From Solen grandis (lineage: Eukaryota > Mollusca > Bivalvia > Adapedonta > Solenidae), in NCBI GenBank assembly GCA_021229015.1, contig CM037788.1, forward strand, positions 50,593,040 to 50,657,039: a stretch of 64,000 nucleotides of DNA. The letters are read 5' to 3'. A program made the translations under genes and the position numbers. Position 1 is the first letter of the stretch, and every line of letters begins with the position of its first letter. This document shows, one piece after another, positions 5,020 to 61,400 of this stretch. The notes below the pieces were generated by a model, which was given only the letters and a program-made list of their open reading frames with translations, ran no database searches and was not told the DNA's origin.

Positions 5020-5042
5020 ACCTGTAACAGAAAGCAAACATA
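5020..5042 (-). promoter_or_regulatory. Candidate 3' splice site before ORF3
   Basis: The minus strand reads TTTGCTTTCTGTTACAG directly followed by GT and the ORF3 ATG. It is a pyrimidine tract plus CAG, close to the metazoan acceptor consensus, placed where a spliced subgenomic RNA for ORF3 would need it. Confidence 0.55.
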
Positions 5043-5048
5043 AACCCC

Positions 5049-6180
5049 TTAGCGTACCCGCCGATGACAGTCACTGCACTTATATTTATCAATGTCCAAA
5101 GCATCAGTTGGCGTGATGTCAACACAAGAGCCATGGTACCATTCCTGGCAATAATCACATTGAATCATAAAGCGGCGCTGCCAGGGCTTCCGGCAAGAGC
5201 AATAGACCCTATCATCACCTCTAGCGGGCTTCGAAACCTCGCCTGGGTTTTTCTTCCAGTGTGCAATCCACTGAGGGATCTCACGGTCTCTGCAAAGTTT
5301 GAGACGGTCGTGGTTAGCCACAAAAACAGAGTTCCTGAGCTTGACCCGGAAAAGATAGGAGGACAGTTTTGCAACAATCACTCCAGGCCCTTTCCATTGA
5401 GGGGACAGTTTCTTACACTTGCCCTTCAGCACAGCAGTATCGAGGAGGTAAACTGAGTCACCTACCTCGAAGTTTCGTTCCATGATGCGGAGGTCATAAT
5501 TGCGTTTCATCTGTTTGGATGTCGCCTTCATGACCTTTCGGGCGGTTTCATGAGCTCTTTCCATTGTGGAGGTGAGCTCTTTCACGTGCTCCTCCGGGGA
5601 CAGGTGCTTACCCCTGGGGAGGGGAAACATCAAATCCGCCGGGGTACATACTTCTCTCCCCAACATCATCTTGTTGGCTGTGAAGCCAGTCATACGGTTT
5701 ACTGATGCTCTGAGGGCACCTGCTATTTGCTGCAGATGTAAGTCCCACTGTTTTTGGGATTTGCCCACAAAACAGCGAACTGCGTCCATGAGGGTGCGGT
5801 TATAGCGCTCCACCTGGCCGTTGGAGGAGGGCCGGTAGGGCGTTGTCCGCGCCTTGTGGATCTCTAGGACTCTGCAAAGCTCTCCGAAAAGCTTTGACTC
5901 AAAGTTGCGGCCTTGATCTGAGAAGACCTGGAAAGGATTTCCAAATCTTGAGAAAAAGCCATCGACCGCTGCCCTTGCAGTATCCTCTGCGGACTGACTA
6001 GGCACTGGGATGCACTCCACCCACTTGGTGAATTGATCGACAATCATAAGCACATGCTCGTTTCCCCGAGGCGTCTTGGGAAGAGGCCCCAGGAAATCGA
6101 CATGCACTCTTTCCATGGGCGATCCTGCCTGATATTCGGTCATGGGGCATCTACCCTGGCGGCAGTCTTTTTGTTCTGAT
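5049..6180 (-). CDS. Integrase catalytic core with C-terminal PHD finger (part of Pol)
   Basis: This frame continues Pol after a break at the G run 6144-6147. Numbering the frame from 6236, the DDE triad is D47 (HVDFLGPLP), D107 (FSDQGRNFES) and E143 (GQVERYNRT), the normal rve core. After the basic C-terminal domain (motif LSPQWKGP, then a region ending NHDRLKL) the last 50 residues form a C4HC3 PHD finger: C346, C348, C360, C363, H368, C371, C387, C390, with Trp366 two residues before the His. The block FMIQCDYCQEWYHGSC closely resembles PHD fingers of the KDM7/PHF8 class, which read H3K4me3. Chromodomains are common in this position in chromoviruses, but a PHD finger is unusual. A role in steering integration to active promoters is inference. 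The upstream HHCC zinc finger lies at the end of the preceding frame. Confidence 0.93.
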
Positions 6181-8935
6181 TGCACTGAGCACAACCAGCC
6201 ACAAAGTTGGTGATGTCTTTCCCCATACCATACCAAGCAAACTTCTCCTTCATTCGGTCGCGAGTGCGACTCTCACCCTGGTGACCGGCAGAAGGGAGGT
6301 CATGGTTCAGTTCCATGGCCTTCACCCTCATTTCTACTGGCAGCAGGAGTCGTTTCTCCTCAGAATGCTTATCAGATTGATAGAGCACCCCGTCGATCAA
6401 AGACAAACTCTCCCTATTTAGCCAGTAGGACTTGGTGGCTGGGCTAGAACGAAAAAGAGCTGATGAATCAGGCACCTTCTCATCCTCCAGCCAGTCCAGC
6501 ACAAGACCCAAGTCACTGTCTCTGCGCTGCGCCTCCCGTAAATCGGACACAGTGAAGCCCCAACTTTGTGGGGTATCACTAGGTGGATCCGGGCAGGGCT
6601 TTCCGTCCTTCCGAGCTGAGTCCAGGTCCCCAAGGGGAGGATCACTGGTCCTGGGCCTGCCCCGGGTCGCTACTAGATTCACACTGGCCACCTTACCCTC
6701 TAGAGAACACCCCGCAGCGTCCCACGGAATCTCCTCCAGAAATCCAGCCATTGTGGTCACATCCACTGGATCTACAGCGTCTCCCGGGCCCCAAGCCCCC
6801 TTAAGGTCGCACTGTGACATGCAATCCTCAACGGTACTAAAAATCAGATCCTCTGAGAGATACTGATTACCACCTGGTTCTACGACCGATGCAATGCGCG
6901 CCGGCTTGCCACCCGCACTCATTGGGCTTTCACCTTCGACTGTGTTACCGCGGATGCTCCTGGCCATGGCCTCTTGACTTCTGAGAACGGCACTATTCAC
7001 CTCGAGCTGAGAAACAGCACAAGGGATAGGCCTATTGTTACCAGTTACCAAGGGCACAGCCTCATCCACTTGCTCGAAAAACCCCTCCCACTTCGCGTGG
7101 GCGTTTGAGCAATATTTACAGCCACCACAGGGCAAGTCCCCTGGCTTGACTCCTACTTCAAATGCCTTGCATGTCTCCCCATTTAAGGGGATCCGTGACA
7201 GTGCATCAGCGTTTGAATGGTCCTTGCCAGCCCGGTGCTGCAGCACCATATTGTACTGAGACAGCTCTTCAAGCCATCTCGCCAACTGCCCCTGCGGTTC
7301 CCGAAAGTTCACAAGCCACCTTAAGCTAGAGTGGTCAGTACGCACCACGAATGGCCGCCCCAGCAGATAGTGCCTAAACTGTCTAGTAAAGCGCACGACT
7401 GCCAAGAGTTCCTTTCGGGTAACACAGTACCTCCTCTGCTCCTTGGTCAAGGCATAGCTTCCATAAGCTATTACCTTTTCCTTGCCATCTTGCACCTGAA
7501 TTAGCTCAGCGCCTATGGCCAGGTCTGACGCGTCCGTATCCAGAATGAAGGGATCAGTCTGGTTAGGCAATGCCAACACTGGTGGTGAGATTAAACTCTC
7601 CTTCAATGTAGCAAATGCGTCTGCCTGCTCTGGGCCCCAGACAAACTGATGTTTGCCCGTGACAGCATATAGTGGAGCGGCTACCTTAGAGAAATTCTTG
7701 ATGAATCCCCTGTGGTAGTTTACCAGCCCCATGAACCTCTCAACGTGCTTGGCACAGTCTGGGACTGGCCAATTTTTTACCACAGCTATGTCCTGTTCGG
7801 ACACAGCCAGGCTATCGCCGCTGACTTGCCGGCCCAAAAACTCCACCTCTTTCTGAAAAAAGGTACATTTCTTGGGTTTCAGCTTCATCCCGTGGTTGCG
7901 GAATCGCTGAAGTGCCTCCCTAAGATTGGCCATGTGATCCTGGAAATCTCTACCCAGCACTACCACGTCGTCGAGGAATGCCAGGACAGTTTTCCAATTC
8001 AGACCTCTGAGGATCAAATTCATGGCCCTAGCGAAGGTCGCCGGGGCCCCACACAAGCCAAATCCCATGCGGGCATGCTCAAAAAGGCCATACCTTGTGA
8101 TAAAGGCGGTCTTTTTCTGATCCTCATCACGGATCCGCAGCTGGAAGTAAGCTGAGTTAGCGTCAAGTTTCGAAAACCAGACACTACCAGCCAACGTGTC
8201 TAGACAGTCATCAACCAAGGGCAGAGGGTAAACGTCTTTGACAGTCACCTCATTCAATGCCCTATAGTCGATGCACCATCTTACTGTCCCGTCTCTCTTG
8301 CGGATCAGAACGGGCGCTGAGGCCCAGTCTGATGTCGACTCCTTGATAACGCCGGCTTTGAGCATCTTTTTCAAGTGCTCTTCTTCCTCGCCAGCAAAGC
8401 ATGCAGGGGTTCTCCGCACTCTCTGCTTGACGGGCTTGGCATTACCAGTGTCGATGGTGTGTTCGATCCCCGTGAAGTCGCCGAGATCGAACTCATCTTT
8501 GGCAAAGACGTCCTGGTACTCAATTAGCAATTGAGCTAATTGGACCTGTTCGCCTTCACTGAGGTTGGTGCACGAGTCCCGGTACACCTGTTGAAGGTGC
8601 TCCGGTATAGCACTGCCATTACCATGAGATAATGACATGCCCCCATGCACTTCCATGGACTGCACCTGTGGCACCGAGATTTCCTCAGTACAGTCAGTGT
8701 CGTCCATTATCTCCCTAATTGGGTATGCCCGACCGACCTCACTGCCCTTTTTCACAATGCGATAGCAGTCAGTGGGGTTAACCAGGCACACCACTGGCTC
8801 CGAGGCACTCTGACGTAGGGTACTAGGCATCAGCAATTTGGACTGGACTAGTGGTTCAATGACATAGTCAGACAACTGAGTGTCCACCTTGCATGAGACT
8901 TTGGCAACCGAATGAGGGGTATGACACGTCGCTTA
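6140..8935 (-). CDS. Pol: reverse transcriptase, RNase H and integrase HHCC finger
   Basis: The frame is open from about 8935, just after a stop, and overlaps the end of the protease frame by roughly 90 nt. Counting from codon 8887, RT spans about 195-355 with D242 (FSKLDANSAYF) and the FLDD box at 304-307 (D306 and D307, a common variant of YxDD). RNase H spans about 445-565 with D452 (DTDASD), E493 (RKELLA), D518 (RTDHSSL) and D561 (NADALSR). After a poorly conserved linker with a CGGCKYC cluster, the end of the frame carries the integrase HHCC finger (H and H in LNHDLPSAGH, then CAQC). The stop at 6140 separates it from the DDE core, which follows in another frame. All catalytic residues look intact, consistent with a young element. 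Confidence 0.96.
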
Positions 8936-9486
8936 GCAACAGTGACACGGGACACTATGGGGCCCTCCGAGGAATCCACATCAAGAGAGATGTGCATCCC
9001 ATCAAAGAGGAGTATCCCTTTTCCCATATCCAGTACCGCGCTCCCAATACCATGCAGTATGTCAAACCCCAAGAGCATTTCCTGCTCTATCGGAGCAACA
9101 TACACATTCTCCTTGTACCACCTATGACCAATCCGCATTCTGACCGGGCCGACCACAAACGCAGCCATAGACAATTGTCTACCTGCCGTCAAGAGTTTGG
9201 CATCTCGAATTTTCTTAGGCTTGTGCTTTAGCCCATGGTAGACTTTATCTGAGATAAGAGTCACCTGAGCTGCTGTGTCCACCACCGCTGTGATGGGGAC
9301 ATCCCCTATCTGCACCCTCATTGTGTATTGGGTAGCAGAGGACACCTGATTGGCGTAGATGGTTTCGGGGGCACTTACCTTTTGCTGGCTCTTCTGTGTG
9401 GAACCAGTGGCCACTCTAGCAGGGTTGATGCAGGTCTTGACTTTGTCTGCGGGTCGGGCCGGGAATGACCTACCTTTTCCTCGACC
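8848..9486 (-). CDS. Retropepsin-type aspartic protease (Pro)
   Basis: The frame opens just behind the Gag stop (about 9486), in a +1 register to Gag. A GTG at 9414 is only a nominal start; expression as a Gag-Pro fusion is more likely. The active-site motif is VVDTAAQVTLIS, that is D-T-A rather than the usual D-T/S-G, followed downstream by LLGFDIL, which matches the second conserved block. The domain spans about residues 25-130 counted from 9414. The last 90 nt overlap the Pol frame. The junction with Pol sits at a run of four G on the plus strand (8916-8919). Confidence 0.88.
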   Translation of the reverse strand, partial: GRGKGRSFPARPADKVKTCINPARVATGSTQKSQQKVSAPETIYANQVSSATQYTMRVQIGDVPITAVVDTAAQVTLISDKVYHGLKHKPKKIRDAKLLTAGRQLSMAAFVVGPVRMRIGHRWYKENVYVAPIEQEMLLGFDILHGIGSAVLDMGKGILLFDGMHISLDVDSSEGPIVSRVTVAKRRVIPLIRLPKSHARWTLSCLTMSLNH

Positions 9487-9490
9487 CTCT

Positions 9491-11032
9491 CTAGTTTAAC
9501 GACTTGCTTGGGGCTTTGTCGTTAAGCTTAGGGCAATCTCTCTTGAAGTGCCCTACCTCATCACACTCAAAGCAGCGCGGAGGGCCTGTTGGCCTATTAG
9601 GACGTCGCGGCCGTCCACGGCGCAATTTTGACTCTAGATCCTTGATCGCCTGTTGGATCTTAGAGTCCACGTCCTCAGCTGATACCGTGCGTGGGGACTG
9701 AGCCGCCACAGCAGACACACACTCGGATGCCTTCTTTTTTCCCTGAGGCTTGCCAAAAAGCACCGCGCTCACTTCTTGGCACCGGCGTACTAGCCTCTTA
9801 GCCTCAGGTAGGGACTTAGGGGCTTGAATACACACCTGTTGTCCCACAACTTTGTCATGTAGGCCCAAGCAGAACCTTGAGACCACCTCAGAGGTCACAA
9901 AGTGCTCTGGTAGGCCCCGGAAAGCCTTATCGCCGAGGGTGAGGACCTTATCTTCCCATTCATCCAGGGTTTCCCCTGGCGCCTGGGAGGCAGCTGCGAA
10001 CTGAGCCCGCAGTGCTTCAGGTGGGTCGACTCCCCCATAGCGGTCTTCCAGCTTCCGCATGACTTGGCCGAAAGCCATATCCTGACTACTCCCCGTGATG
10101 AGGTAGTAGTAGTCCAGTGCTTTACCTGTGAGGCAGAACACCAGACAGTCCAGGAGTTCACTCTCGGTTCTCTCCCCTTTAGACATAATCCACTTGAATT
10201 TATGCTTAAAGGAGGACCAGTTTGTATGGCCATTGAACCTAAGGTCCTTTGGCAACGACCTCTCCAACTCTCGGACCCAATATGACTGGTCGGACCTGTT
10301 TGTGGGAGCTGGTGTCGAACACCACTCCTCCCCCGAGTCCTCCGAGTCCTCAAACCTAATCTTCCTGCGGGGCGTGGCTGGCACCGCCGGAGTAATAGGG
10401 GACTCCCCCCAGTCAATATCTCTCCTAAGAGGCTGGATATCCTCTGAGGTCACGAGTTTGGCTTTTGGCTGAGCCAAAATGCCCTTTTTTACTGGTTTTG
10501 GCTCTGAGACCTCCACCATAGATTTGACAGTAGGTTGCGGCTGGGAGTGCAAAGCCTCACGCTTCCCCTGTTGGGTTAGCAGAGTGGCCATGCTCTCGAC
10601 CAAGCCCACCATCCTGTCCCACTCCCTCCTCGAAGGTTGAAAGTCCACATCTGAGTCAGAATCTGAGTTCGACTCAGGGTATTCCACGTCCACTTCCGGT
10701 TTGGAAGCTAACATGTGTGGCTTTAGATCCGCCACTGCACCTAGGGGCTCCTGCTCACTGACAGAAGAGCCCTTCCAAGTATGACGACTAAGGCTATGCA
10801 GCAAGTTCTGAGAACTTGCCTCCACCTTAATCAAGTCCTTGTTGGGCATGAAATCCAACCGCTCAAGCTCACTTGATGTGAACGAACGGCGGATAACTGT
10901 TTCAAGCAACCTGTGGTCAAGGTTACCCGAGCTCGCACGCAATGCAACTATTGCATCAGCAAACACGGGCCCAACCCCAGAAATCGCCTGCAGTTCTGCC
11001 GCAGAAGCAAAATTGACAAATACCGTTTCCAC
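9491..11032 (-). CDS. Gag polyprotein with N-terminal helix-hairpin-helix motif and CCHC zinc knuckle
   Basis: 513 residues from ATG 11032. Residues 6-35 (ASAAELQAISGVGPVFADAI) match a ComEA-type helix-hairpin-helix, a non-specific DNA-binding motif with the hallmark GVGP. The middle is acidic/Ser-rich and then basic. About 250-420 is a retrotransposon capsid-type region (WVRELERSLPKDLRF... and LDEWEDKV). A CCHC knuckle lies at C487, C490, H495, C500 (C-x2-C-x4-H-x4-C). The stop at 9491 is preceded by TTA-AAC codons, forming GTTAAAC with the base before them; that heptamer is a known -1 slippery sequence in some viruses, but Pro is not in the -1 frame, so it does not explain Pro expression. 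A G4/C4 run lies at 9510-9513. Confidence 0.93.
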   Translation of the reverse strand: METVFVNFASAAELQAISGVGPVFADAIVALRASSGNLDHRLLETVIRRSFTSSELERLDFMPNKDLIKVEASSQNLLHSLSRHTWKGSSVSEQEPLGAVADLKPHMLASKPEVDVEYPESNSDSDSDVDFQPSRREWDRMVGLVESMATLLTQQGKREALHSQPQPTVKSMVEVSEPKPVKKGILAQPKAKLVTSEDIQPLRRDIDWGESPITPAVPATPRRKIRFEDSEDSGEEWCSTPAPTNRSDQSYWVRELERSLPKDLRFNGHTNWSSFKHKFKWIMSKGERTESELLDCLVFCLTGKALDYYYLITGSSQDMAFGQVMRKLEDRYGGVDPPEALRAQFAAASQAPGETLDEWEDKVLTLGDKAFRGLPEHFVTSEVVSRFCLGLHDKVVGQQVCIQAPKSLPEAKRLVRRCQEVSAVLFGKPQGKKKASECVSAVAAQSPRTVSAEDVDSKIQQAIKDLESKLRRGRPRRPNRPTGPPRCFECDEVGHFKRDCPKLNDKAPSKSLN

Positions 11033-11539
11033 AACGGGGCTGTGGCCACAGTATTGTCATCAGCAGACATGGCGCCGGTCAGGGAAGAGTGTGTTCTACT
11101 CATTCATCCCACCCAAACTTACAATCAAGTATAAAGTTTGTGACTGACAAAGGAAGCTGCGGAAATGAGTCCCGCGCACCCCTATCACCGTCGGAGCAAA
11201 CAAATAAAAAAAACACACACACGAAAGGACTACAAACAAACCTAAATAAAGTTAGATAACAATAAATAAAGCTTGAATGTGAAACAAACTGTGCACCGGA
11301 ACTGAGCTCCGCTTGCCGTTTGCCGGACAAGAGTCTACGGAAACCAAGAGATTTCGACGCAAAACTCACAAAAAGGGAAAAATACGCAACAGTATTCCTC
11401 GCAGAGTGATCCGCGTAGAACAAAAGTTGATATTTCTACCCTACACTCTGCCTGTGAAACGTACTCAAAGCGAAAATTGGCTGAGCCAAATCCGCCGAAT
11501 TTCGTTTCAATGGTAGCGAGCAAACAACGGTTAAAATAC
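11033..11539 (-). other. 5' leader of the Gypsy element
   Basis: About 510 nt between primer binding site and Gag start. No domain-bearing ORF is visible. It presumably carries the packaging signal and part of the 5' UTR (inference). Confidence 0.5.
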
Positions 11540-34914: not shown

Positions 34915-35014
34915 NNNNNNNNNNNNNNNNNNNNNNNNNNNNNNNNNNNNNNNNNNNNNNNNNNNNNNNNNNNNNNNNNNNNNNNNNNNNNNNNNNNNNN
35001 NNNNNNNNNNNNNN
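34915..35014. other. Assembly gap, 100 N
   Basis: Exactly 100 N, the usual placeholder for a gap of unknown size. The sequence to the right starts in the middle of a viral capsid gene, so its beginning and the other core genes of the element are not in view. Confidence 0.99.
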
Positions 35015-36059
35015 AAACATCCACAGTAAATAATTTCTTCCACAACTTGTTTAGCAGTATTGATGTGTACCTGAACAACAAACTGATCACCAATAATGCT
35101 GACACATATGCGTACCGGGCCTACATTGAGAATTTGCTGTCTTATTCTACGGACAGTAAATCAACACAGCTCTACGCTACGGAAATGTGGAGTCCTGACA
35201 CGGCGGGTCATATGCAAGCGCATACAGTTGCGGGAGGTAATGAAGGATATAGAAAAAGAAGAACACGTATCCACCAGAGTCGTGTTCTGGAAATGTGCGG
35301 ACGTCTGCATTTAGACCTGTGTTTGCAAGACAAGTACCTTCCCAATGGTGTAGAGATACGACTGCGACTCAACAGAACCCCAGTCAGTTTTTGCCTGTTT
35401 GGAGAAGAGGCAAAAATCCAGTTAATTCAAGCTGGATTCAATGTTCGGACTGTTGACCTGTTACCCGTAGTGGCCAACAACTTAAACCAGACCATCGCTC
35501 AACATGGCATGAAGATCCCAATTCGCCGAGCTGAGGTAAAAACTTTCACCATTCCTGCAGGCCAACGATCAAAGATCGAAGATCATTTATTTCAAGGACA
35601 GTTGCCCAAACGTATCATTCTGGGTCTGGTAAAGAATACAGACATGAACGGTGATCTGGCAACCAACCCATTTGATTTTCAACATTTCAACTTGTCTAAG
35701 TTAGAAGTCAGTGTAGACGGAAAGACGACACACAACTTGCCGTTCCAGCCTAACTTTCCCACAGGAGAAATTTTGAGATCATACATGTCCCTGCATCAAG
35801 CCACGGGATCACTCGGTTTAAACCGCTCCATGGGTCTGACAATGAACGATTACATGCAGGGGTACACACTGTGGGGCATTGACTTAACGCCAGATCAAGG
35901 ATCAGAAAGGGACAGCTGCATCCTATAAAAACGGGAAACTTGCGAATCGAGGTTCAGTTTCGTGCAGGTCTTGGTGACCCCATCAATGTGATTGTGTATG
36001 CCGAATACGACAGTCAGATAGAGATTAACGGGTTCAGAGAAGTCATCACAGACTATTAA
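35015..36059 (+). CDS. Polinton-type major capsid protein, 5'-truncated by gap, one frame break
   Basis: The frame is open from the gap edge (VNNFFHNLFSSIDVYLNNKL...YAYRAYIENLLSY) to a stop at 35926-35928. It matches the F54H12.2-like family annotated in many invertebrates, the double jelly-roll major capsid protein of Mavericks/Polintons. The family C-terminus continues in another frame from about 35912 (blocks GNLRIEVQF and INVIVYAEYDSQIEI) to the stop TAA at 36057-36059. The break sits at the AAAGGG run 35906-35911. About 345 residues are present, and the N-terminal part is lost in the gap. Its role is the main virion shell. Assignment as major rather than minor capsid protein rests on memory of the family. 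Confidence 0.82.
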
Positions 36060-36061
36060 CC

Positions 36062-36514
36062 ATGAGCAAATCAGGACAACAGCTGGCCAAACAACTGTAC
36101 GAAGAAATCTACAACTTGAATAGGCGAAACGATATGGTAAAGAGTTTGAACCAGCATGTGGTGCATGAACTGCAGACACACCTCTTTGATATCGCGAAAG
36201 AAAACTGTTATGGTTGCATTGTTGATCATCCCAGTCAGACCCAACATCCCATATGTTTGTTTAGCAGCAAAAGTGAGTGGGTCGAGATGTTTCTGAACAG
36301 TGCATTAAAAAAACTGGACATGTATCAAGTGATGGAAAGATGGTACGCTGAACTACAAAACATGGATCTCACACGCGCTGAGAAAGCTGATGCTTATCAG
36401 ATGTGGGCAAATATAAAGGCTAGTGTAGATACGAACAAGATCACACCATTGGAAGCTTTTGAGTGCGAATGGGCAGGACGCATTAAACAAGATTGGGAAA
36501 ATGGAAACGATTGA
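36062..36514 (+). CDS. Conserved small Polinton-type protein with Cys/His cluster
   Basis: 150 residues, starting 3 nt after the capsid stop and overlapping the protease start by 14 nt, so the three are arranged like a co-transcribed late block. Mostly helical and charged. A CYGCIVDHPSQTQHPIC cluster (residues about 50-66; C-x2-C...H...H-x2-C) could bind zinc. Proteins with this DHPSQxxH motif accompany capsid genes in Maverick-like elements. Function is not known to me. Confidence 0.6.
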   Translation: MSKSGQQLAKQLYEEIYNLNRRNDMVKSLNQHVVHELQTHLFDIAKENCYGCIVDHPSQTQHPICLFSSKSEWVEMFLNSALKKLDMYQVMERWYAELQNMDLTRAEKADAYQMWANIKASVDTNKITPLEAFECEWAGRIKQDWENGND

Positions 36515-37100
36515 GTTGCAGTATATTTTGGATCATTCACCAATTCTAGCTCCCTTGAATGCCGTGGTATGTGCTAAAGATCAACTACCACAACGTAGAC
36601 CAGAGACTGTAAAAGCTTACATAGTGAATACCCACAATTCGACTCAACCTGGTGAACATTGGGTGGTTGTGTTTTTCAACGATAAATCGACTTACTACTT
36701 TGATTCGTATGGACAAAAACCACTCCATTGTGACATTCAACGTTTCTTGGAAAGACATGGACCCTATACATGGAATCTCATGAGACTTCAAGGATACAAC
36801 ACGTTTGTGTGTGGAGCATATTGTTTGTTTGCTTTGCATTTTCTTGTTCGAGGATGTGATTTAACACGGGTGTTTAGAGCTATATTCCGGACAGAGGATC
36901 AACCTCACTTCAATTTGAACGATTCCAATGTGGGATGTTGGTTTTACCAGAACTATTCAGAACTGTACAAACGTGCAAGAAGACAAGTGTGTAATCAGCA
37001 CCAACAAACATGCACAGCTAAACATCCACCAAAGTTTGGAGATGGTCGTGCGTGTTTTGAATTACTGACGAATAGTTTGGACCCATTCTACTTTCATTAA
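36501..37100 (+). CDS. Adenovirus-type cysteine protease (Polinton PRO)
   Basis: The ATG at 36501 overlaps the previous stop (ATGGAAACGATTGA), giving 199 residues. A longer in-frame start inside the previous gene is less likely. Key blocks: GEHWVVVFF (catalytic His), YYFDSYG (acidic partner), LQGYNTFVCGAYCLFALHFL (oxyanion Gln region and nucleophile Cys in CGAYC). These are the hallmarks of the adenain/ULP-like maturation protease found in Polintons. Its likely job is cleaving capsid precursors. The C-terminus ends NSLDPFYFH. An AATAAA follows at 37195. Confidence 0.88.
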   Translation: METIELQYILDHSPILAPLNAVVCAKDQLPQRRPETVKAYIVNTHNSTQPGEHWVVVFFNDKSTYYFDSYGQKPLHCDIQRFLERHGPYTWNLMRLQGYNTFVCGAYCLFALHFLVRGCDLTRVFRAIFRTEDQPHFNLNDSNVGCWFYQNYSELYKRARRQVCNQHQQTCTAKHPPKFGDGRACFELLTNSLDPFYFH

Positions 37101-37194
37101 AGTGTTATGTACTTGTTGTTCATAGTGCTTGCATTGTTCATATTGTTTGTTCATATTGTTTGTTCATATTTTGTTTGCAATGTTCATAGAGTTC

Positions 37195-37200
37195 AATAAA
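37195..37200 (+). terminator. Poly(A) signal after the capsid-protease block
   Basis: AATAAA 95 nt after the protease stop. Before it lies a run of TTGTTCATA repeats. The signal converges on the stem-loop of the minus-strand RING gene 82 nt further on. Confidence 0.7.
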
Positions 37201-37281
37201 AGACTAAAACTGATTTGATTTCTTGTTGTTTATCTTACACATTAACAATTGTGATATATTCCCTCTCGAATATAGTTTGAT

Positions 37282-37297
37282 GGCCCTGAAAAGGGCC
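37282..37297 (-). terminator. Histone-type 3' stem-loop of the RING gene
   Basis: The minus strand reads GGCCCT-TTTC-AGGGCC, preceded by an A-rich AAAACGG context and followed 15 nt later by GAGAGGGA. It starts 35 nt after the RING stop. The 6-bp stem and TTTC loop match the replication-dependent histone mRNA 3' end. Confidence 0.8.
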
Positions 37298-37331
37298 GTT
37301 TTTGGTTTTTGTGATCCTGAATTACTCGGAG

Positions 37332-37595
37332 TCACCCTACTAACTCTGAATAATCAGGGTCAAACCATATACCATAATAGGCTGAACGCACTGTAGGCCC
37401 ATGTTTAGCGAAAACACAGGCAGGCCAGGCATACACTTGATAGGGTGCCCTACAAAACGGGCACTTCTGAAGCCGTGCGAAGCATCTGACGCATACAATG
37501 TCCTGACATTGACACTGGTTTATGTGATATATATCCTCCTCCCTCTCCTCTAAACACACACCACACTTTTCGAACCAGAGGTTTTGTTCAGACAT
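37332..37595 (-). CDS. Small RING-finger protein
   Basis: 87 residues from ATG 37595. A RING-type zinc arrangement runs CGVC (11-14), CQC, CVRC and CPFCRAPY, with His in YHIN; the CPFC end is typical of RING E3 ubiquitin ligases. There is nothing else in the protein. A TATATAAG box lies about 30 nt upstream on the minus strand (37625-37632), and a histone-type stem-loop follows the stop. Small RING proteins in DNA viruses often degrade host restriction factors; a similar role here is inference. Confidence 0.78.
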   Translation of the reverse strand: MSEQNLWFEKCGVCLEEREEDIYHINQCQCQDIVCVRCFARLQKCPFCRAPYQVYAWPACVFAKHGPTVRSAYYGIWFDPDYSELVG

Positions 37596-37841
37596 TGTGA
37601 TTTCATTCTTCTTCTTTAAAAAACACTTATATAGTTATGAAAAAAAGTAGGTCAGTAGGTCAATCCATCCCCAAATGTCAAGGCCGAAGACAATGCTATC
37701 CAACTTAGGTCAAGGTCGAACTTGAATCATTGGATGGAAATAACGTTCTCTGATTGGTGTACGCTAACAGTAGAAAGTAGGTCAATCCGCCTCAAGACTA
37801 TAAAAGCACACTGCATCGTATCATAATCCTACTACCCAACC
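37596..37841. promoter_or_regulatory. Divergent promoter with AGGTCA half-sites
   Basis: Two TATA boxes face outward: 37625-37632 for the RING gene and 37799-37806 (TATAAAAG) for the plus-strand gene at 37842. Between them are four AGGTCA half-sites (37648, 37656, 37707, 37779), a TCAAGGTCG overlapping the third, and an inverted CCAAT box (GATTGGT near 37752). The block from TAGGTCAATCCA to TCAAGGT is repeated in the promoter at 38990. AGGTCA and TCAAGGTCA are nuclear-receptor sites in animals; use here is inference. Confidence 0.6.
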
Positions 37842-38315
37842 ATGGAAAGCTACGTAACTTCTGATCTCGTTAACAACGCCATACAGGCTGCTGATTTGTA
37901 TGAGCTGACGACAGCTGCTAACCAGGCATCAGTGTCGTACACTCCGACTCCGGTGTACCAACCCAGCTACCAACCAACGTATCAACCTCAGCCTCCACCA
38001 CACCAGCAGCAACCAGTACAGCAACAACAACCAGTGCAACAGCAACCGGCAGCGCAGCCAGTAAATAATGTTGGACAATCTATTCTGAGGGAACTCAAAG
38101 AGGTGAACAACAACCTCATCAAATTGCAAAAGAGAATGGTAGAAGTGGAATGCCGTATCAAAATGAAAACAGACAAGCTGGTGGTGCCTATCACTTTCAC
38201 TCCGGAAAATGTGGAAGCATCCAACAAACGTCCGCATGATGGTGGATCCCATTCTAAGACTGGACTTGGAGCCCATTGTAAAGACATACAAAATTGCAAA
38301 AAGAGTAAGAAGTAG
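37842..38315 (+). CDS. Unknown Pro/Gln-rich protein with coiled-coil segment
   Basis: 157 residues; the ATG at 37842 lies 36 nt behind the TATA box in a good context (ACCATGG). Residues 1-30 look helical, 33-75 are a Y/P/Q-rich low-complexity stretch (YQP repeats, then QQQPV repeats), 80-108 form an amphipathic helix (LRELKEVNNNLIKLQKRM) likely to coil, and the tail is basic (KKSKK). No family recognised. It is flanked by the shared promoter and by a histone-type stem-loop 18 nt after the stop. Confidence 0.72.
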   Translation: MESYVTSDLVNNAIQAADLYELTTAANQASVSYTPTPVYQPSYQPTYQPQPPPHQQQPVQQQQPVQQQPAAQPVNNVGQSILRELKEVNNNLIKLQKRMVEVECRIKMKTDKLVVPITFTPENVEASNKRPHDGGSHSKTGLGAHCKDIQNCKKSKK

Positions 38316-38332
38316 AGAAAAAAAAAAACAAC

Positions 38333-38348
38333 GGCCCTTTTCAGGGCC
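38333..38348 (+). terminator. Histone-type 3' stem-loop
   Basis: GGCCCTTTTCAGGGCC, preceded by A10-CAAC and followed by AACCCAGATGTCTCGAAAGGAC. The purine block GAAAGG is about 15 nt after the stem, as in histone genes. Confidence 0.85.
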
Positions 38349-38416
38349 AACCCAGATGTCTCGAAAGGACATATTTTTACAATTGTCAAACCAAGTAAAT
38401 AAAAGTATCAAACGAA

Positions 38417-38713
38417 ATGAATTCATGCCATTCGTTTTCAGACTGTGCTATGGATAAGTCACATATAACTAGCGACTGCATATCTGACATGGACAAAATA
38501 GAAGCCCGACACCAACGTTCGCTTAAACTACAAGCCCGATACCAACGTACGCTTAAAATAACAACAACACTCAGGAGTATCATAGACAAATTGAGTGCAT
38601 GTTACTTTCATGAACTATACTACGATGATATCTTAAATATCATTGAAGCACATTTCATCACCATAGAACATGTTGAATACCTGCTGAAGAAACTCACAGA
38701 CGATCATGAGTAA
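38417..38713 (+). CDS. Small unknown protein between two stem-loops
   Basis: Up to 98 residues; the true start may be ATG 38417 or the later ATG at 38450. Helical, charged sequence (SIIDKLSACYFHELYYDDIL..., HVEYLLKKLTDD) with two imperfect RHQRSLKLQ/RYQRTLKI repeats at 31-48. No family recognised. No full TATA box lies upstream, only AATAAAAGT at about 38398. A stem-loop starts 28 nt after the stop. Confidence 0.6.
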   Translation: MNSCHSFSDCAMDKSHITSDCISDMDKIEARHQRSLKLQARYQRTLKITTTLRSIIDKLSACYFHELYYDDILNIIEAHFITIEHVEYLLKKLTDDHE

Positions 38714-38740
38714 CCACTACTCTGTGAAAAAAAAAACAAC

Positions 38741-38756
38741 GGCCCTTATCAGGGCC
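38741..38756 (+). terminator. Histone-type 3' stem-loop
   Basis: GGCCCTTATCAGGGCC: the same stem as the other copies with one loop change (TATC), followed by AACCCAAATGTCTCGAAAGAG with the purine block at the same spacing. Confidence 0.8.
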
Positions 38757-38989
38757 AACCCAAATGTCTCGAAAGAGAATATACCTCAATTGTCACCATT
38801 ATTTTCAAATTCCATTCAAATTTTCTTTCATTAAAAATATGATCCAATGTTTTATAAAAAATGTTACAAAAAGTTTACAAAAATGTTACAAAAATGTTAC
38901 AAAAATAAAAATGTTACAAAAAAAAAAGTCATCACTACTACAAATTCGGCTTGAAATGTTTTTAATTTTACAGCAATTCTGATATGTCA
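38757..38989. other. AT-rich spacer
   Basis: Contains several ATGTTACAAAAA repeats (38860-38930). No gene. Confidence 0.5.
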
Positions 38990-39110
38990 ATACAAAAGTA
39001 GGTCAATCCACCCCAATGTCAAGGCCAAAGGCAATGCTATCCAACTCAGGTCAAGGTTAATTAAAATTTTGGGGAAACATCAAGGCTATAAAAGCGCACC
39101 GCATCAAGCA
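38990..39110 (+). promoter_or_regulatory. Second copy of the AGGTCA/TATA promoter
   Basis: Repeats the upstream module of 37640-37720 with few changes (GTAGGTCAATCCA, ATGTCAAGGCC, GCAATGCTATCCAACT, AGGTCAAGGT) and ends with TATAAAAG at 39087-39094, 43 nt before the ATG at 39137. Two AGGTCA half-sites at 39000 and 39048. Confidence 0.65.
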
Positions 39111-39136
39111 TTCAGTCATATTCTCGCTGCACAACC

Positions 39137-39399
39137 ATGGAACAAATTCAGCAACTGAGTGAATTTATCCACGAATTGATGGGGTTGATCGAACGACAAC
39201 GCAATGAGTGGAGACAACAGCAAGACCATATTGCAGAATACCATCTGGTTTTGTCAAACAATATGTAGAACAATGTGCAGAACAACAGATGATGCAACGC
39301 GATGAACATGATGCCTATATGCTCATGGAACATCAGGAGATGTTGAGACAACAGCAACAAGATGAAGATGAAGATCATATGTTCATAGAACAACATTAA
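39137..39399 (+). CDS. Small Gln/Glu-rich coiled-coil protein, frame broken
   Basis: The first frame starts at ATG 39137 (ACCATGG context), reads MEQIQQLSEFIHELMGLIER... and stops at 39268. A second, overlapping frame (open across 39208-39399) carries on in the same style (YVEQCAEQQMMQRDEHDAY, then EMLRQQQQDEDED). Promoter before and stem-loop after suggest one gene with a frame break between about 39208 and 39268. The stop at 39399 is about 100 nt before the stem-loop; in between are GATGTCACCGAAA repeats. No family recognised. Confidence 0.5.
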
Positions 39400-39500
39400 A
39401 GATAAAACGATGTCATCGTAATCAGTGACGATGAACACGATGTCACCGAAACCAAACACGATGTGGACAATGTCACCGAAATCTAAAGAAGAAACAAAAC

Positions 39501-39516
39501 GGCCCTTTTCAGGGCC
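39501..39516 (+). terminator. Histone-type 3' stem-loop
   Basis: GGCCCTTTTCAGGGCC followed by AACCCAAATGTCTCGAAAGGAC, then TTTACAATTGTCA. The same 60-nt context surrounds the copies at 38333 and 38741. Confidence 0.85.
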
Positions 39517-39574
39517 AACCCAAATGTCTCGAAAGGACATTTTTACAATTGTCATTTTTACAATTTTACATAAA

Positions 39575-39685
39575 TCTGTTTTCATATAGAGTACCATTCG
39601 GTACTATAGATTCTGTTTTCATATAGAGTACCATTCGGTACTATAGATTCTGTTTTCATATAGAGTACCATTCGGTACTATAGAT
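39575..39685 (+). repeat. Three perfect 37-bp tandem repeats with hairpin core
   Basis: Three exact 37-bp units starting TCTGTTTTCATATAGAG (39575, 39612, 39649). Each holds AGTACC-ATTC-GGTACT, a 6-bp stem with 4-nt loop. Confidence 0.92.
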
Positions 39686-39862
39686 TTGGTACCATAAGTA
39701 CCAAAAAAAAAAAAAAAATTTATGGTACCACGGTACCATAAAAAAAAAAATTTATGGTACCTTGGTACCATAGTGCCACCCTATACTACTAACAGCAATT
39801 TGGTACCATGCTTACATTGTATGCATTGCGATAAAACAGGGGTGCAACCGCTTGCACCCTGC
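39686..39862. repeat. GGTACC palindrome cluster and hairpin
   Basis: Two 20-bp palindromes, TATGGTACC-AC-GGTACCATA (39721-39740) and TATGGTACC-TT-GGTACCATA (39753-39772), separated by A/T tracts, then GGGTGCAA-CCGC-TTGCACCC (39840-39859). Together with the 37-bp iterons this looks like a replication origin or an element end (inference). Confidence 0.8.
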
Positions 39863-40620: not shown

Positions 40621-41944
40621 TACGAGGGTCATCCAGAAATGAATGAGAGTTGCTTAATTACGTAAAAACTAAGTGTTACTCACAAAATCTCTTCAAAGTC
40701 CCTCAATATAATCTCCCGCGGATGCTATAGTCGACTCCCATCTTTTTGGCAGATCCCGAACTCCCGTTGCTAGGCAACCTTTGTTGATGTCCCTAACGAC
40801 CTCATTCACGGCGACATATAGTTCATTCAAATCATCATATTGGACTCCTCGTAGTGGTTCTTTAGGTTTTGGAAACAGATCGTAGTCGGGGTGGGTGGGG
40901 AACTTAAGTCTGGTGAATATGGCGGGTGATTAAGAACTTCCCAGTGGTACCGCTCGAACACGTCCCTAACAACGCCGGACTTGTGCGGCGTGGCGTTATC
41001 ATGCAAAATTAATGGCGTCACCTGTAAAAGTTCCGGTCGTTTGCGGCGTATCGTTGGTCGAAGAATTTTAGTCAAATACCACTCATAGTACTCTTTATTA
41101 ACCGTGCTTCCATGTTGAACTCTGTGTGTTGTCAAAACGCCGTAAATATCGTAAGCGAATATCATAAACATCTTTGGACAGTTCATACTGCGGCGATATT
41201 TCACAGGTCTTGGCGAGTTTGGAGTATGCCTATCAGAGCTTTGGCTTTTCAATTCTGGCTCAAATGACCGGATCCATGTTTCGTTGATAGCAACCACTCT
41301 ATTCAGCATCATTTCACCTTCCTCTGAATATCTATTCAACAATTCAGTGCAAATTTGAACACGTTTGCCTTTTTCAGTTTTTGAGAGTGCGTGCGGCACC
41401 CACCGCGCGGCGATCTTTCTCATGCCTAAATTCTGCGTCAGAATTACATGAACGGAAATCTTACGTATCCCCGATTCATACGAAATTTCCTCGCATGTAA
41501 ATCGTCTATCAGAGTTGAGAAGTTGAGCAACAAGTTCGGTGTTATCGGCGTCTGTAACTGTCACCGGCCTACCGGAGGAGGGCTTCTTGTAAGACTCTTG
41601 CCGTCCATTATTGAAATCCATCACTCATCTACAAATAGTGCTAAATCCAACAGCACATGTCGGGTCATCTGGAATGCATTAAATATTTCAGTCGCTTTCT
41701 TTCCGCGCCTACTCCCTATCTTGATAAACGCATAAATTTCTTCTCACGTCAGCGCGAACGCATCGTCCGCTATTGCGTTGTTTGATATGACGTCATCAAA
41801 AAATGACATAACGCCACGATGCTTATGAACACGTGCGCTTACGCGCAAAGAGTTAGTTTAGTTACGTGCCAAGTTTTGTGGCTTTATGTTGTTTCAATCA
41901 AAAGTTACAAACTAACTCTCATTCATTTTCGGATGACCCTCGTA
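40621..41944 (-). mobile_element. mariner-type DNA transposon, decayed
   Basis: Terminal inverted repeats of about 31 bp begin TACGAGGGTCATCC at 40621 and, inverted, end at 41944; one or two mismatches between them. Flanked by TA, and 1.3 kb long, both usual for mariner. The transposase inside is on the minus strand and broken. Confidence 0.88.
40700..41740 (-). pseudogene. mariner transposase pseudogene
   Basis: The longest open part is 41624-40827. It contains SSGRPVTVTD, VAINETWIRSFEPE, LILHDNATPHKSGVV and HPPYSPDLSS, blocks of mariner transposases. The first catalytic aspartate (DETW in active copies) is Asn here. The C-terminal block reading DYDLFP lies in another frame after a C4 run near 40900. 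The N-terminal helix-turn-helix part (about 41740-41635) is open in another frame ending in a stop. It is therefore not functional as written. Confidence 0.85.
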
Positions 41945-43110: not shown

Positions 43111-44142
43111 GGAATGATTTTTATACAAATATGACATGTCACATACAAAATGAGTTGGTATTTAAAGATTTTTATTAGATATTGCCCTTTGATGATTTTT
43201 TTTTACTTAACCTTATCTAGAAATGTCCCAATCTTCAAAACCCATCAAACACTGGCATCATCGTTTCTTGACAAACAAACATTCAGGGAGCATCACCCGC
43301 CTCCAAAGGTTTTTGGTATCACTTAGGTTTCTTCTAGAGCGTTCCATCACTGTTTTTCATTTTAATTCTTGGAACGAAATCGCCAGTGGCTGAGTTGCCT
43401 CCCTTCGCAAGCCTTTCATTTAAGTTTATGCATTCCAAAAATCAAGCTTTGAACTAGAATTTTTGTATGAAAAATCTTGTTTTCGTGGTATTGCCAAGTC
43501 TTGTTTTGTTTTACTTAATTGTTGGATAATTTACAATATGTCTTTAAGTAAAAGATTTCCACATTTATCCCTGTGACTTGTAAGTAGGGTTTAAGAATTA
43601 GATCAAATTGCATACTTTTTATCTTAGTCTATATTTATTTGAGATATGACATATACTCGTATAACTACCTATTAACGTGCATATTTTAAAATTAAAGATT
43701 TATTGTCAATCACATTCTCATTTCGGCGAAGTTGCAATCGGGAATCTGTGATGAATGGTGATGGGTGTCACCGGAAATAACAAAACTTGCAATTACGGAT
43801 ATATTTGTTAGCTCATCACTTTTGATTCAAATTTAAGTAAGTAGGTAAAAGGATTGCCAATGATGTTAGTTCTTTTCTTTTTTAAATCTCTGGTATGATA
43901 CTGATTGATTTTTGTAAATCTATAAAATGAAAAAGTATTGCAACCCGGGGTAATACGAGAACCCTAAAATAAGTAAAATAGATATTCATTATTAGTGATT
44001 CATGTGGTATTATCAGTATTATCCAAACTCAGAAAATGAATGGTTGCTTTTCTATAATTTTATACTATGCACACGCAAACTTTATGTATATAAATATTTC
44101 CACCGACTCTTATTGATACATGAATGTTTTGTTATTTTTCAG
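43111..44142. other. Intergenic or intron upstream of the sulfotransferase exon
   Basis: AT-rich. No coding exon is recognised, up to the acceptor TTGTTATTTTTCAG at 44129-44142. Confidence 0.5.
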
Positions 44143-45233
44143 TGGAACTTGAAGGAAATGACAATGGCAAAAGCGCAGAGATGGCTAAACGAGTGGAACA
44201 CCTGAAACATGTTTGCTCTCATCAAAGGCTTTGGCGTACACGGCCCAAGCAACAAGGCGGCCTTTTTTATATAGCAGAACAATATAAGCTGAGTTACTGC
44301 AGAGTGGCAAAGGTTGGGAGCACCTTTTGGACCCAGGTCTTTCTTATGCTTGCTGGGATTAAACCGGAAGTTGGTACGACAAGTCTAGAATCTATTCTTG
44401 AAATGCCCAGGGATGAGTCGCATCAGCTGATGAAAAAATACAAAAACATAACAATGCATATGAACGACAAACGCGTTCATCAAACTACAAGCTTCATGGT
44501 AAGTAGGAATCCATATTCCAGACTGTTTTCTGCATACGTCGACCAGATATACCTTCCAAATAAATGGCGCGTCGCAGTAAATATGGTGGAAGGTAATCGC
44601 AAAGCAAAGTGCGGAAGTGACGTCACATTTGGAGAGTTTCTTCTCAGTATTTCAACGAGACTGGTCGCTGGAAAGAAAGTGGACCTACACTGGTCGCCCA
44701 TTTTTTCGATATGTTCTCCCTGTAAGGCTGGAATTGACATATTAGCAAAGCAAGAAACATTTAATGATGACGCGGACTACATTTTGGCAGTTGCAGGTGT
44801 CAGTGAAACTATGCGCAATAAGATATCTCATGCAGTGCGGGATACATTTGTTGAAACATCGATTCAGACCCTTGTTCACACGTACGTTTCAAAAGGTTTT
44901 GATATCAAAACAGGCTGTGTGACGGACAAAGTAATAGCGGAGAGAATTTGGAACGCGTTTCAGATTAAAGGTTACATCCCGGACGCGGTTAAATTTCCCA
45001 AAACCAAATTTGACAAAATACCCGAAATTGGTCTTGAAGAATATTTAAAAAACACAATATTTGAGGAAGTAGGCGATCGTATAATGTCATCAGATGAGAG
45101 AAGCAAACAGAGAAAAAAATGGGAGAAAAAGTTTTGGAAGGACATTCCAAAAAGTACCCTTCGCAAGGTTCGGGATGCCTATTACGAGGATTTTTACACA
45201 TTCGGCTACGATCTAGATATCGGTAAAATGTAA
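44143..45233 (+). CDS. Carbohydrate sulfotransferase (Sulfotransfer_2 family), last exon
   Basis: A single large terminal exon after a strong acceptor, entering with 2 nt of a split codon, about 362 residues, stop at 45233. The 5'-phosphosulfate loop is CRVAKVGSTFW (Lys, Ser-Thr) and the 3'-phosphate site is FMVSRNPYSRLFSAYVDQ (Arg, Ser), both intact. Downstream blocks GSDVTFGEFLL, DLHWSPIFSICSPC and DADYILAV fit the HNK-1ST/CHST8-14 group of Golgi type II membrane sulfotransferases, which sulfate chondroitin/dermatan or other glycans using PAPS. The N-terminal membrane anchor must be on an upstream exon that I could not find. The exact acceptor sugar cannot be assigned. Confidence 0.9.
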
Positions 45234-58499: not shown

Positions 58500-61400
58500 T
58501 TATACTGAACAGAGGGAGGGATTTGTAGCATATATGTTTTGTCAGAAAAGGATCATATTTAATCATACTTATTATCGATACTCAACATTGATAAATAGGT
58601 GTTTGTATTTTTCCCATGAGGCTTCAAATATAGCACTTTGGAAGTTTTTCATGGTATTGTATTTTTCAATTTGATAATAAGAAATAATATTATTCATAAA
58701 CAGGTCAACTGATGGCATCTGATTTTTCATTTTGCAACAGTACACAAAATACTTTGCTTGCAGCAGTATGTTATTTATACATTTATCCTGAGTAAGACTA
58801 CCAAATAGAACCTCACACGCATTCCATTCTTCAATATCAATATTACATTTATTTTTATAAGATTTAACAATTGTGTCCAAATTTGAGAGCTCACTTCACA
58901 ATTCCAGAATAGATGCATCAATGTTTCAAGGGCAGTTTTACAAAATGTACATGTATCCTCTGTATTTATATTCATTTTAGTGAGTAAGTAATTTGTGCCT
59001 AGAATTCTATATTTTAGTCTATATTGAACCATATCAATTTAAGATCTTTTGTTATCTTGAACACATTATCATAGAATGGTTTATTTATTTGGGTATTTAT
59101 GAATGCATCATTAAGTTGAGATAAATCATTCATCCATTTTTGTAAGATTTTGGATACTCCTGAATATTTAGGATCTGTCTATAAATTTATTTACATCCTT
59201 TATCATTATTAAAAGGAGCAATAGGTAATGGTATAGGGGAATGAAGGTTTTTTTAATAGTAAATGGTTAAATTACTTTTCTCAATGTAGTTTTTAATCGC
59301 AGCAAGCAAACCATTGTATGCAATAAAATTGTTCTTATTCTGAAATTATTTATGAATTCTCTATAACTATAAAATTCAGACCGAGCTTATAAGATTCTCT
59401 AAAAAGATTATCCCTGCTGCAAGCAATCTTTTATAACTCAGACCTTAATATCTTGGTTATACCTTAAATTGAGTAAATAAACTTCTTCATCATTCTTTGG
59501 ACTTGTCTTTAATATCACAATTAAATAGCTATTTAAAACTGTTCTTGATGTAGTTTGTTTTTATGAAATCAGTACCATATTTATGTAAATGTTTAATAGA
59601 TGGACAGGTACATTCCACAACATAAATGAATTTATTTACATCTGATATTGATTTCTAAACCAGGTAGCTTTTAAGCTATGCATAAATGTTTTATATCAAT
59701 CACTTTCAAACCACCATACTTATACTCTTGATCAATAACGTTACGCTTGATTTTATCATTTAAGTTTTTCCATAGAAATTTAAAAACAACATATTTTGTG
59801 TAGTGTTTATTTTTTCTAAAGATGGTATTCCATGAATAACGTGATTGAGTTTTGAAAGAGCAAGAGTTTTGATTAGCAGATGGTGATATCACTCTATTTG
59901 ACCAATTTGCAAATAGCTGTTTTATTTCCTCAATTTTAGAATCGTAATTTATATTAACCATCTCTGATAAGTCTGTAGAAAAATTTTATACCAAAGACTG
60001 TAAAATTAGATTTTTCCCCTACTAAATTGAATTCTGGACAAAGTATTACCTGACTTTATTTACGTGATCCTATCCATATAACTTTTGTTTTATCTGTGTT
60101 GATATTAAGGCCGGAGATTCTTCCACAGAATTTTAAAACTGACATTGTGTTTAATAAGGAATCACTTGTGCCATCTTAAGTTAAACTAATGTCATCTGCA
60201 TATTGTGACACTAAATATTCTTGTCCATTTGTTTTTATCCTTTTTATGTCATGGTTACTCCTTAATAGAATTGCAAGTATTTCTGGACAGAGAATGAATA
60301 GGTAGGGTGACAAAACATCTCCTTGACGACAGCCCCTCTGCAAGCTAAACCATTCAGATATGTAACCATTTATTATAACACATGATTCTTCATTGGTATA
60401 AAATAAAGCTACCCATTTTCTCATTGAAGATCCAAAATTAAAAGATTCTAAAACTTTAAACATAAAACTCCATGATATAGTATCAAAAGCTGCTGCAAAG
60501 TCAATTAATAACAAAAGTCCTGGAATATGTTTGTTTTTTTTCTGTATAAAACATAATATCGTACAATAATCTTACATTTGAAACCATAAGTCCCCCAGGT
60601 AAAAATCCAGTTTGATCTTCATTGATTATATTCCAAGTACATTTTTATACGAAAAGCTATTGATGCTGAGACTATCTTGTATGATACATTTAGTAAAGAA
60701 ATAGGTCTCCAATTTTTTAGAAAAGGTATTGTCTTTATTTCCTTTAGGTATACAATGTATAACTCCGTGTTTCTGTGTTATAGAAATGTTTCTCTCGTGA
60801 AAGCATAATTTATGGATCTGACTAGAAATATTTCTATATCACTCAAGAAAAATAATTAAAAAAAAAACATCATTTCCAGGACTAGTGTTATTAGACATTT
60901 TATTCAAACTTCTTAGCATTTCGGAATGTGTAAAAATCCCATTCTGAAAATTTTGGAACCATTGTGTTATTAAACAGTTCATGTAGGGAGATTTCTTCTA
61001 TCTCATTTGAGTTATATAAGTTTTGGTAATGTTGTTTAGTCTCTAACAAGGTTTCCTCTTGAGTATATAATTGCTGTCCTGTTTGAGTTGTATGTGTATT
61101 CATGAATTTTGCAACAAAATTTATATTTTCTAAATTGCAGTAGTATTTTGTAGGGTTTTCATCCTCTTGAATCCATTTTGCTTTTGATCTAGTAAAAACA
61201 CCTTCCATTTTTCTTTCTCAATTCTAGAAGTTCTTTTCTCTTACTATCTAACATGTCATGATTTATGTTTGTTTTTCAATTTTCTCAATCTGTTTTAAAA
61301 TATTATTTTCTTTATCATAGGAAATAGTTTCTCCCCTAATAGCTAGAAGCAATGAGTCAAAGAAAAATTGATTATTAATGCTGAAAGCTAAGTCTTGCAA

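Follow-up and report, generated by a model that had tools for sequence, protein, structure and literature searches.

Histone-Type Hairpins in a Virus-Like Element

A 64-kb stretch of the genome of the bivalve Solen grandis (contig CM037788.1, positions 50,593,040 to 50,657,039; this whole stretch is called the window below) contains the remains of what appears to be a Maverick/adintovirus-like element, in which a capsid–protease block is followed by a small set of accessory genes (Table 1). These encode a RING-type protein, a Pro/Gln-rich protein and a 98-residue protein, and a frame-broken Gln-rich remnant lies beside them. Each of the four is accompanied on its 3′ side by a hairpin, and the hairpins are of histone type in sequence and in place. 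Histone-type 3′ ends are regarded as a mark of histone genes. An earlier annotation of this DNA (hereafter, the original prediction) held that none of the proteins encoded here is a histone, and Pfam agrees, finding no histone among the three intact accessory proteins.

An exact pattern search for GGCCCT-TWTC-AGGGCC finds exactly four copies in the window, at the places and on the strands originally predicted, one of them with the loop TATC. Each copy has a mismatch-free 6-bp stem closed by a U-A pair and a 4-nt loop whose first and third bases are U; read on the sense strand, this asymmetric loop is always TWTC. The closing pair and the two loop uridines are described in excerpts of PMC6827988 as important for binding by the stem-loop-binding protein, SLBP, and GGCCCTTTTCAGGGCC is among the 12 sequences that locate the stem-loops of human histone transcripts in the available part of PMC7807067, the TATC form being absent from that set. 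Folding gives −9.9 kcal/mol for each 16-mer. With up to three mismatches allowed, eight matches are found (the four palindromic sites, counted on both strands) against 0.29 expected from 100 shuffles, and neither strand of the 64 kb contains another perfect 6-bp stem that starts with GG and encloses a 4-nt loop whose first and third letters are T. When the whole window was scanned against 4227 Rfam families, with E values calculated for the whole window, four matches fell below E 0.001, all to Histone3 (RF00032); the sole further match up to E 1 was to a microRNA family (E 0.049). The RF00032 match takes in the loop and the flanks of the hairpins, whose 5′ side is A-rich, as in histone stem-loops. 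Directly 3′ of the stem, three copies have AACCC and the RING copy has ATCAAA. The proposed fit to the metazoan histone 3′ stem-loop thus stands for the stem, the loop and the RF00032 matches, and fails for the ACC directly after the stem, which occurs in none of the four.

The hairpins were also predicted to lie just 3′ of an open reading frame (ORF) on the matching strand. This is borne out for three copies, which follow the stop codon at 34 nt (RING), 17 nt (Pro/Gln-rich) and 27 nt (98-residue), and does not hold for the Gln-rich gene, which is not an intact ORF: all three frames of 39138-39500 contain stops, and one frame closes 14 nt 5′ of the hairpin. Placement was assessed in the region 35015-39785 by asking for a position within 40 nt after the same-strand stop of an ORF of at least 80 aa, for which a random site has a chance of 0.047. 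Three of the four hairpins lie in such a position, and the fourth, that of the Gln-rich remnant, does not. Three of four sites so placed has P of about 4e-4 if the sites are independent, which the three similar plus-strand copies are not.

Sequence Downstream of the Hairpins

A purine block had been predicted about 15 nt beyond each hairpin, and TCGARAGR indeed begins beyond every one of the four, each time at a distance of exactly 12 nt. The RING copy matches the other three at 16, 15, and 16 of the 16 hairpin positions, at 7, 6, and 7 of the 8 purine-block positions, and at 3, 3, and 3 of the 12 spacer positions. Among themselves, the three plus-strand copies are 86-90% similar across 59 nt. 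The sequence CAATTGT is also present 29-31 nt 3′ of the hairpin in all four. In single folds, each of the four copies forms a second hairpin around the purine block, with stems that differ by copy and with 14 to 31 of 200 shuffles folding as well; a fold of the alignment contains the first hairpin and no second one.

Table 1. Features of the element and its accessory block, in window positions.
Feature	Position	Strand	Remarks
Major capsid gene, lacking its 5′ part at an N gap	35015..36059	+	Frame shift between about 35883 and 35910
150-residue gene in capsid–protease interval	36062..36514	+	ORF
Adenain-type cysteine protease gene	36501..37100	+	52 relatives
AATAAA of capsid–protease block	37195..37200	+	94 nt after protease stop
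CAATTGT, approximate	37245-37253 (-); 38379-38387, 38786-38795, 39545-39553 (+)		
Second weak hairpin around purine block	37255-37274 (-); 38356-38372, 38767-38778, 39522-39542 (+)		
Purine block TCGAGAGG, candidate histone downstream element	37262..37269	-	12 nt 3′ of hairpin
Histone-type stem-loop, RING gene	37282..37297	-	Exact match; RF00032 34.8 bits, E 2.4e-06
RING-type gene, 87 residues	37332..37595	-	ORF
Promoter region common to divergent RING and Pro/Gln-rich genes	37596..37841 (246 bp)		TATA-like boxes on both strands
Pro/Gln-rich gene, 157 residues	37842..38315	+	ORF
Histone-type stem-loop, Pro/Gln-rich gene	38333..38348	+	Exact match; RF00032 31.7 bits, E 3.4e-05
Purine block TCGAAAGG, candidate histone downstream element	38361..38368	+	12 nt 3′ of hairpin
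98-residue gene	38417..38713	+	ORF
Histone-type stem-loop, 98-residue gene	38741..38756	+	Loop TATC; RF00032 28.8 bits, E 4.1e-04
Purine block TCGAAAGA, candidate histone downstream element	38769..38776	+	12 nt 3′ of hairpin
Gln-rich remnant promoter region	38995..39137	+	Repeats D6, D7, D8, D17; TATAAAA at 39087
Gln-rich gene remnant, frame-broken	39138..39486	+	Stops in every frame
Histone-type stem-loop, Gln-rich remnant	39501..39516	+	Exact match; RF00032 31.0 bits, E 6.4e-05
Purine block TCGAAAGG, candidate histone downstream element	39529..39536	+	12 nt 3′ of hairpin

The Element and Its Genes

The capsid fragment starts right after a 100-N gap (34915-35014) and aligns with P0053 at 78.5% identity over residues 85-382 and, in another frame, at 72% over 374-431. 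The P0053 model (predicted local distance difference test, pLDDT, 87) matches double-jelly-roll capsid proteins. In BFVD its matches are a bracovirus protein (best E; template modelling score, TM, 0.40), virophages, adomaviruses, MELD virus, and giant viruses, and in the PDB they are the capsids of iridovirus, Sputnik, PBCV-1, and mavirus. Among the best 120 of 655 matches, six of the 11 capsid relatives with an organism name come from Mercenaria mercenaria, the best at 70% identity; PF21738 matches one of 45 capsid relatives. On the far side of the N gap, at the left border, a stretch of 15-18 residues aligns with the capsid better than 300 shuffles do in two of six relatives and not in the other four. 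In the protease family, Peptidase_C5 matches 11 of the 23 aligned members and not the window's own protein, and H53, D68, Q97, and C104, which are presumably the catalytic residues, are invariant in the alignment. For the 150-residue protein, neither Pfam nor PHROG gives a match of weight. The AATAAA that the original prediction assigned to this block is present after the protease stop.

Because a double-jelly-roll capsid and an adenain-type protease lie side by side, the neighborhood is, as judged from sequence and protein models, a Maverick/adintovirus-like element. This copy is a relic, with a frame-shifted capsid gene and a broken Gln-rich frame. No gap separates the RING hairpin from the protease stop, 181 nt away, and it is on this proximity that we assign the accessory genes to the same element as the capsid and protease. 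Neither a protein-primed DNA polymerase B nor a retroviral-type integrase was recognized by eye among the listed ORFs, nor were terminal inverted repeats seen by eye in the window; no dedicated search was made for any of these, and the N gap cuts the element. Just after the last stem-loop, positions 39575-39772 hold three identical 38-nt units at 37-nt spacing, together with long palindromes, and this stretch is perhaps the end of the element.

Pfam says little about the accessory proteins. Three RING models match the RING protein, each under its curated cut-off, the matches of the 98-residue protein are weak and all under cut-off, and the Pro/Gln-rich protein has none up to E 0.1. The 98-residue protein also contains FHELY (38606-38620), which we take to resemble the Rb-binding CR1 motif of adenovirus E1A. 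The promoter region shared by the divergent RING and Pro/Gln-rich genes has TATAAAA at 37799 (+) and TATATAA at 37633 (-), and a repeated promoter with TATAAAA is common to the Pro/Gln-rich gene and the Gln-rich remnant. AGGTCA, which resembles nuclear-receptor half-sites, occurs four times in 37596-37841 (246 bp) and twice in 38760-39137 (378 bp), always on the plus strand; both strands of the 64 kb hold 53 copies in total.

Elsewhere, the window contains a retroelement at 2708-11056 (-) with reverse transcriptase, RNase H, integrase zinc finger, and zinc knuckle, adjoined by TatD-type DNase frames; a DDE_3-type transposase ORF, under the curated cut-off, at 40827-41621 (-); a sulfotransferase family gene at 44124-45233 (+); and a second, fragmentary reverse transcriptase at 60176-60571 (-).

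Related Elements in Other Collections

Capsid and protease queries matched 43, 21, and 42 stretches of IMG/VR, none of which was confirmed. The same search of a prokaryote genome collection gave one locus, L001, a 3.6-kb contig (1-3607) that is filed under an endosymbiont of the tubeworm Escarpia laminata and is probably animal DNA. L001 encodes a Maverick-like capsid (37% identity over 228 residues) and a protease followed by AATAAA, as well as an opposite-strand 277-residue ORF with no Pfam match, whose DTDS motif we take to resemble polymerase B. None of the accessory genes is found on this contig.

A scan of IMG/VR with the exact stem-loop 22-mer gave no hits, and two degenerate stem-loop patterns gave one hit each (L002 and L003); these patterns are strict and partly miss the flank variants of the RING copy, and the scan is no proof of absence. 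Both hairpins were rejected as chance matches. The one in L002 scores 18.9 bits and lies inside a 779-residue ORF, and the one in L003 scores 27.5 bits and lies antisense within a 280-residue ORF.

Proposed Mechanism and Alternative Explanations

As outlined in the available part of PMC7807067, SLBP binds the stem-loop end of histone mRNAs, the U7 small nuclear ribonucleoprotein (snRNP) pairs with the downstream element, and CPSF-73 cleaves, and the mRNAs are untailed and made in S phase. Histone mRNAs of another bivalve, Lucina pectinata, carry stem-loops (excerpts of PMC6210712), and the clam host would therefore have the pathway. We consider it probable that the accessory-gene mRNAs were ended through host SLBP and U7 snRNP, the hairpins having served this endogenous Maverick/adintovirus-like element as mRNA ends. 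In favor stand the hairpin sequence and its Rfam match, the strand and position of the copies relative to stop codons, the fixed distance to the purine block, and the AATAAA that instead follows the protease; the steps of the pathway are inferred. SLBP would bind the hairpin and U7 snRNP would pair with the purine block; a U7 5′ end with UCUUUCGA is predicted to pair with all four blocks, G-U pairs allowed. Cleavage after the hairpin would leave mRNA without poly(A), so that the accessory mRNAs would be linked to S phase and peak there, and such ends may have served an element replicating in dividing cells. That the accessory genes are "early genes" is a guess.

Several findings weigh against termination through SLBP and U7 snRNP. 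The curated gathering cut-off of RF00032 is 34 bits, which one of the four hairpins reaches (the RING copy, 34.8) and the other three do not (31.7, 31.0, and 28.8), and the weakest copy scores near the chance match in L003, which was picked by pattern from a whole collection. The stem is identical in all copies, making covariation uninformative, and the three plus-strand copies are so alike that they are duplicates, not independent cases. The weak second hairpin spans the purine block, which U7 would need unpaired. A search for homologues of the RING protein found none. In L001, neither a Histone3 match up to E 5 nor such a hairpin is present; this locus neither supports nor refutes the proposal, because the accessory genes are absent there too. 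Finally, AATAAA follows the Pro/Gln-rich hairpin at 49 nt and the 98-residue hairpin at 147 nt, which makes a back-up poly(A) site possible.

These two AATAAA signals would also fit an arrangement in which the hairpins work alongside poly(A) and most mRNA of these genes is tailed. There is precedent in human H2A.X, which has dual 3′ ends, with both stem-loop-ended and polyadenylated mRNA (excerpts of PMC7807067). However, the nearest AATAAA on the matching strand lies 1690 nt from the RING hairpin and 2717 nt from the Gln-rich one, and we regard this arrangement as quite unlikely. An alternative of another kind, which we think unlikely, is that the hairpin is the element's own palindrome (a binding site for an element protein, a signal for replication or packaging, or a transcription stop) and merely resembles a histone stem-loop. 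A perfect GC-rich palindrome that occurs four times and is confined to the element would suit such a role, as would the CAATTG palindrome and the second weak hairpin downstream, but in all four copies the sense strand carries TWTC in the asymmetric loop, the sites come after stop codons, and the RF00032 match includes loop and flanks.

The similarity of three copies over 59 nt and the presence of two broken genes might instead point to inert hairpins, derived from one histone-like 3′ end that was caught by chance and duplicated in a decaying element. The RING copy argues against this, having diverged in its spacer while its hairpin has not changed and its purine block has changed little, and all stems are perfect; we consider inert hairpins highly improbable.

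Termination through host SLBP and U7 snRNP thus remains our preferred explanation. Beyond it lies a broader proposition, for and against which we see about equal grounds: that an animal DNA virus lineage co-opted the histone 3′-end system, with an accessory block ended by SLBP and U7, virion genes ended by poly(A), and a programme timed to S phase. If true, several non-histone genes would exemplify a viral use of SLBP and U7, a Maverick-type life cycle would be coupled to S phase, and the requirements of the histone 3′-end machinery would gain a natural test. Animal genomes can also be searched for such elements with the hairpin and the purine block 12 nt beyond it as a key.

Comparison With Known Systems

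The original prediction knew of no histone-type ends in Polintons, and literature searches combining Polinton with histone-type or other stem-loops likewise found none described. From the adintovirus literature, excerpts of PMC11071296 mention histone-like proteins and not a stem-loop, a literature search on F54H12.2 found nothing, and the papers found, some represented by excerpts, contain no report of a virus or transposon that ends its own non-histone genes with histone-type 3′ ends. Maverick/Polinton and adintovirus elements share with the present one the double-jelly-roll capsid family and the adenain-type protease in tandem, and differ in having, in the papers found, no described histone-type 3′ ends.

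The nearest case in the papers found, going by excerpts of PMC6827988, is loop 27 of potato spindle tuber viroid, a subviral RNA whose loop is identical in sequence to that of the histone stem-loop and has another role. Unlike the hairpins here, loop 27 lacks the extended stem for SLBP, serves trafficking rather than 3′ ends, and belongs to a plant pathogen RNA whose host has no known SLBP. Human H2A.X, as described in parts of PMC7807067, has the same succession of stem-loop, downstream element, and later poly(A) site, in a histone gene that belongs to the host.

A further likeness is to replication-dependent histone genes themselves. Their 3′ ends (RF00032) share the 6-bp stem, UWUC loop, and A-rich 5′ side, with the hairpin 14-34 nt after the stop and the purine block 12 nt further on, and the genes are likewise compact, intronless, and provided with TATA boxes. 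After the stem, AACCC or ATCAAA stands here in place of ACC, which makes these ends like those of histone genes and not proved the same, and the genes that carry them are non-histone genes of a virus-like element.

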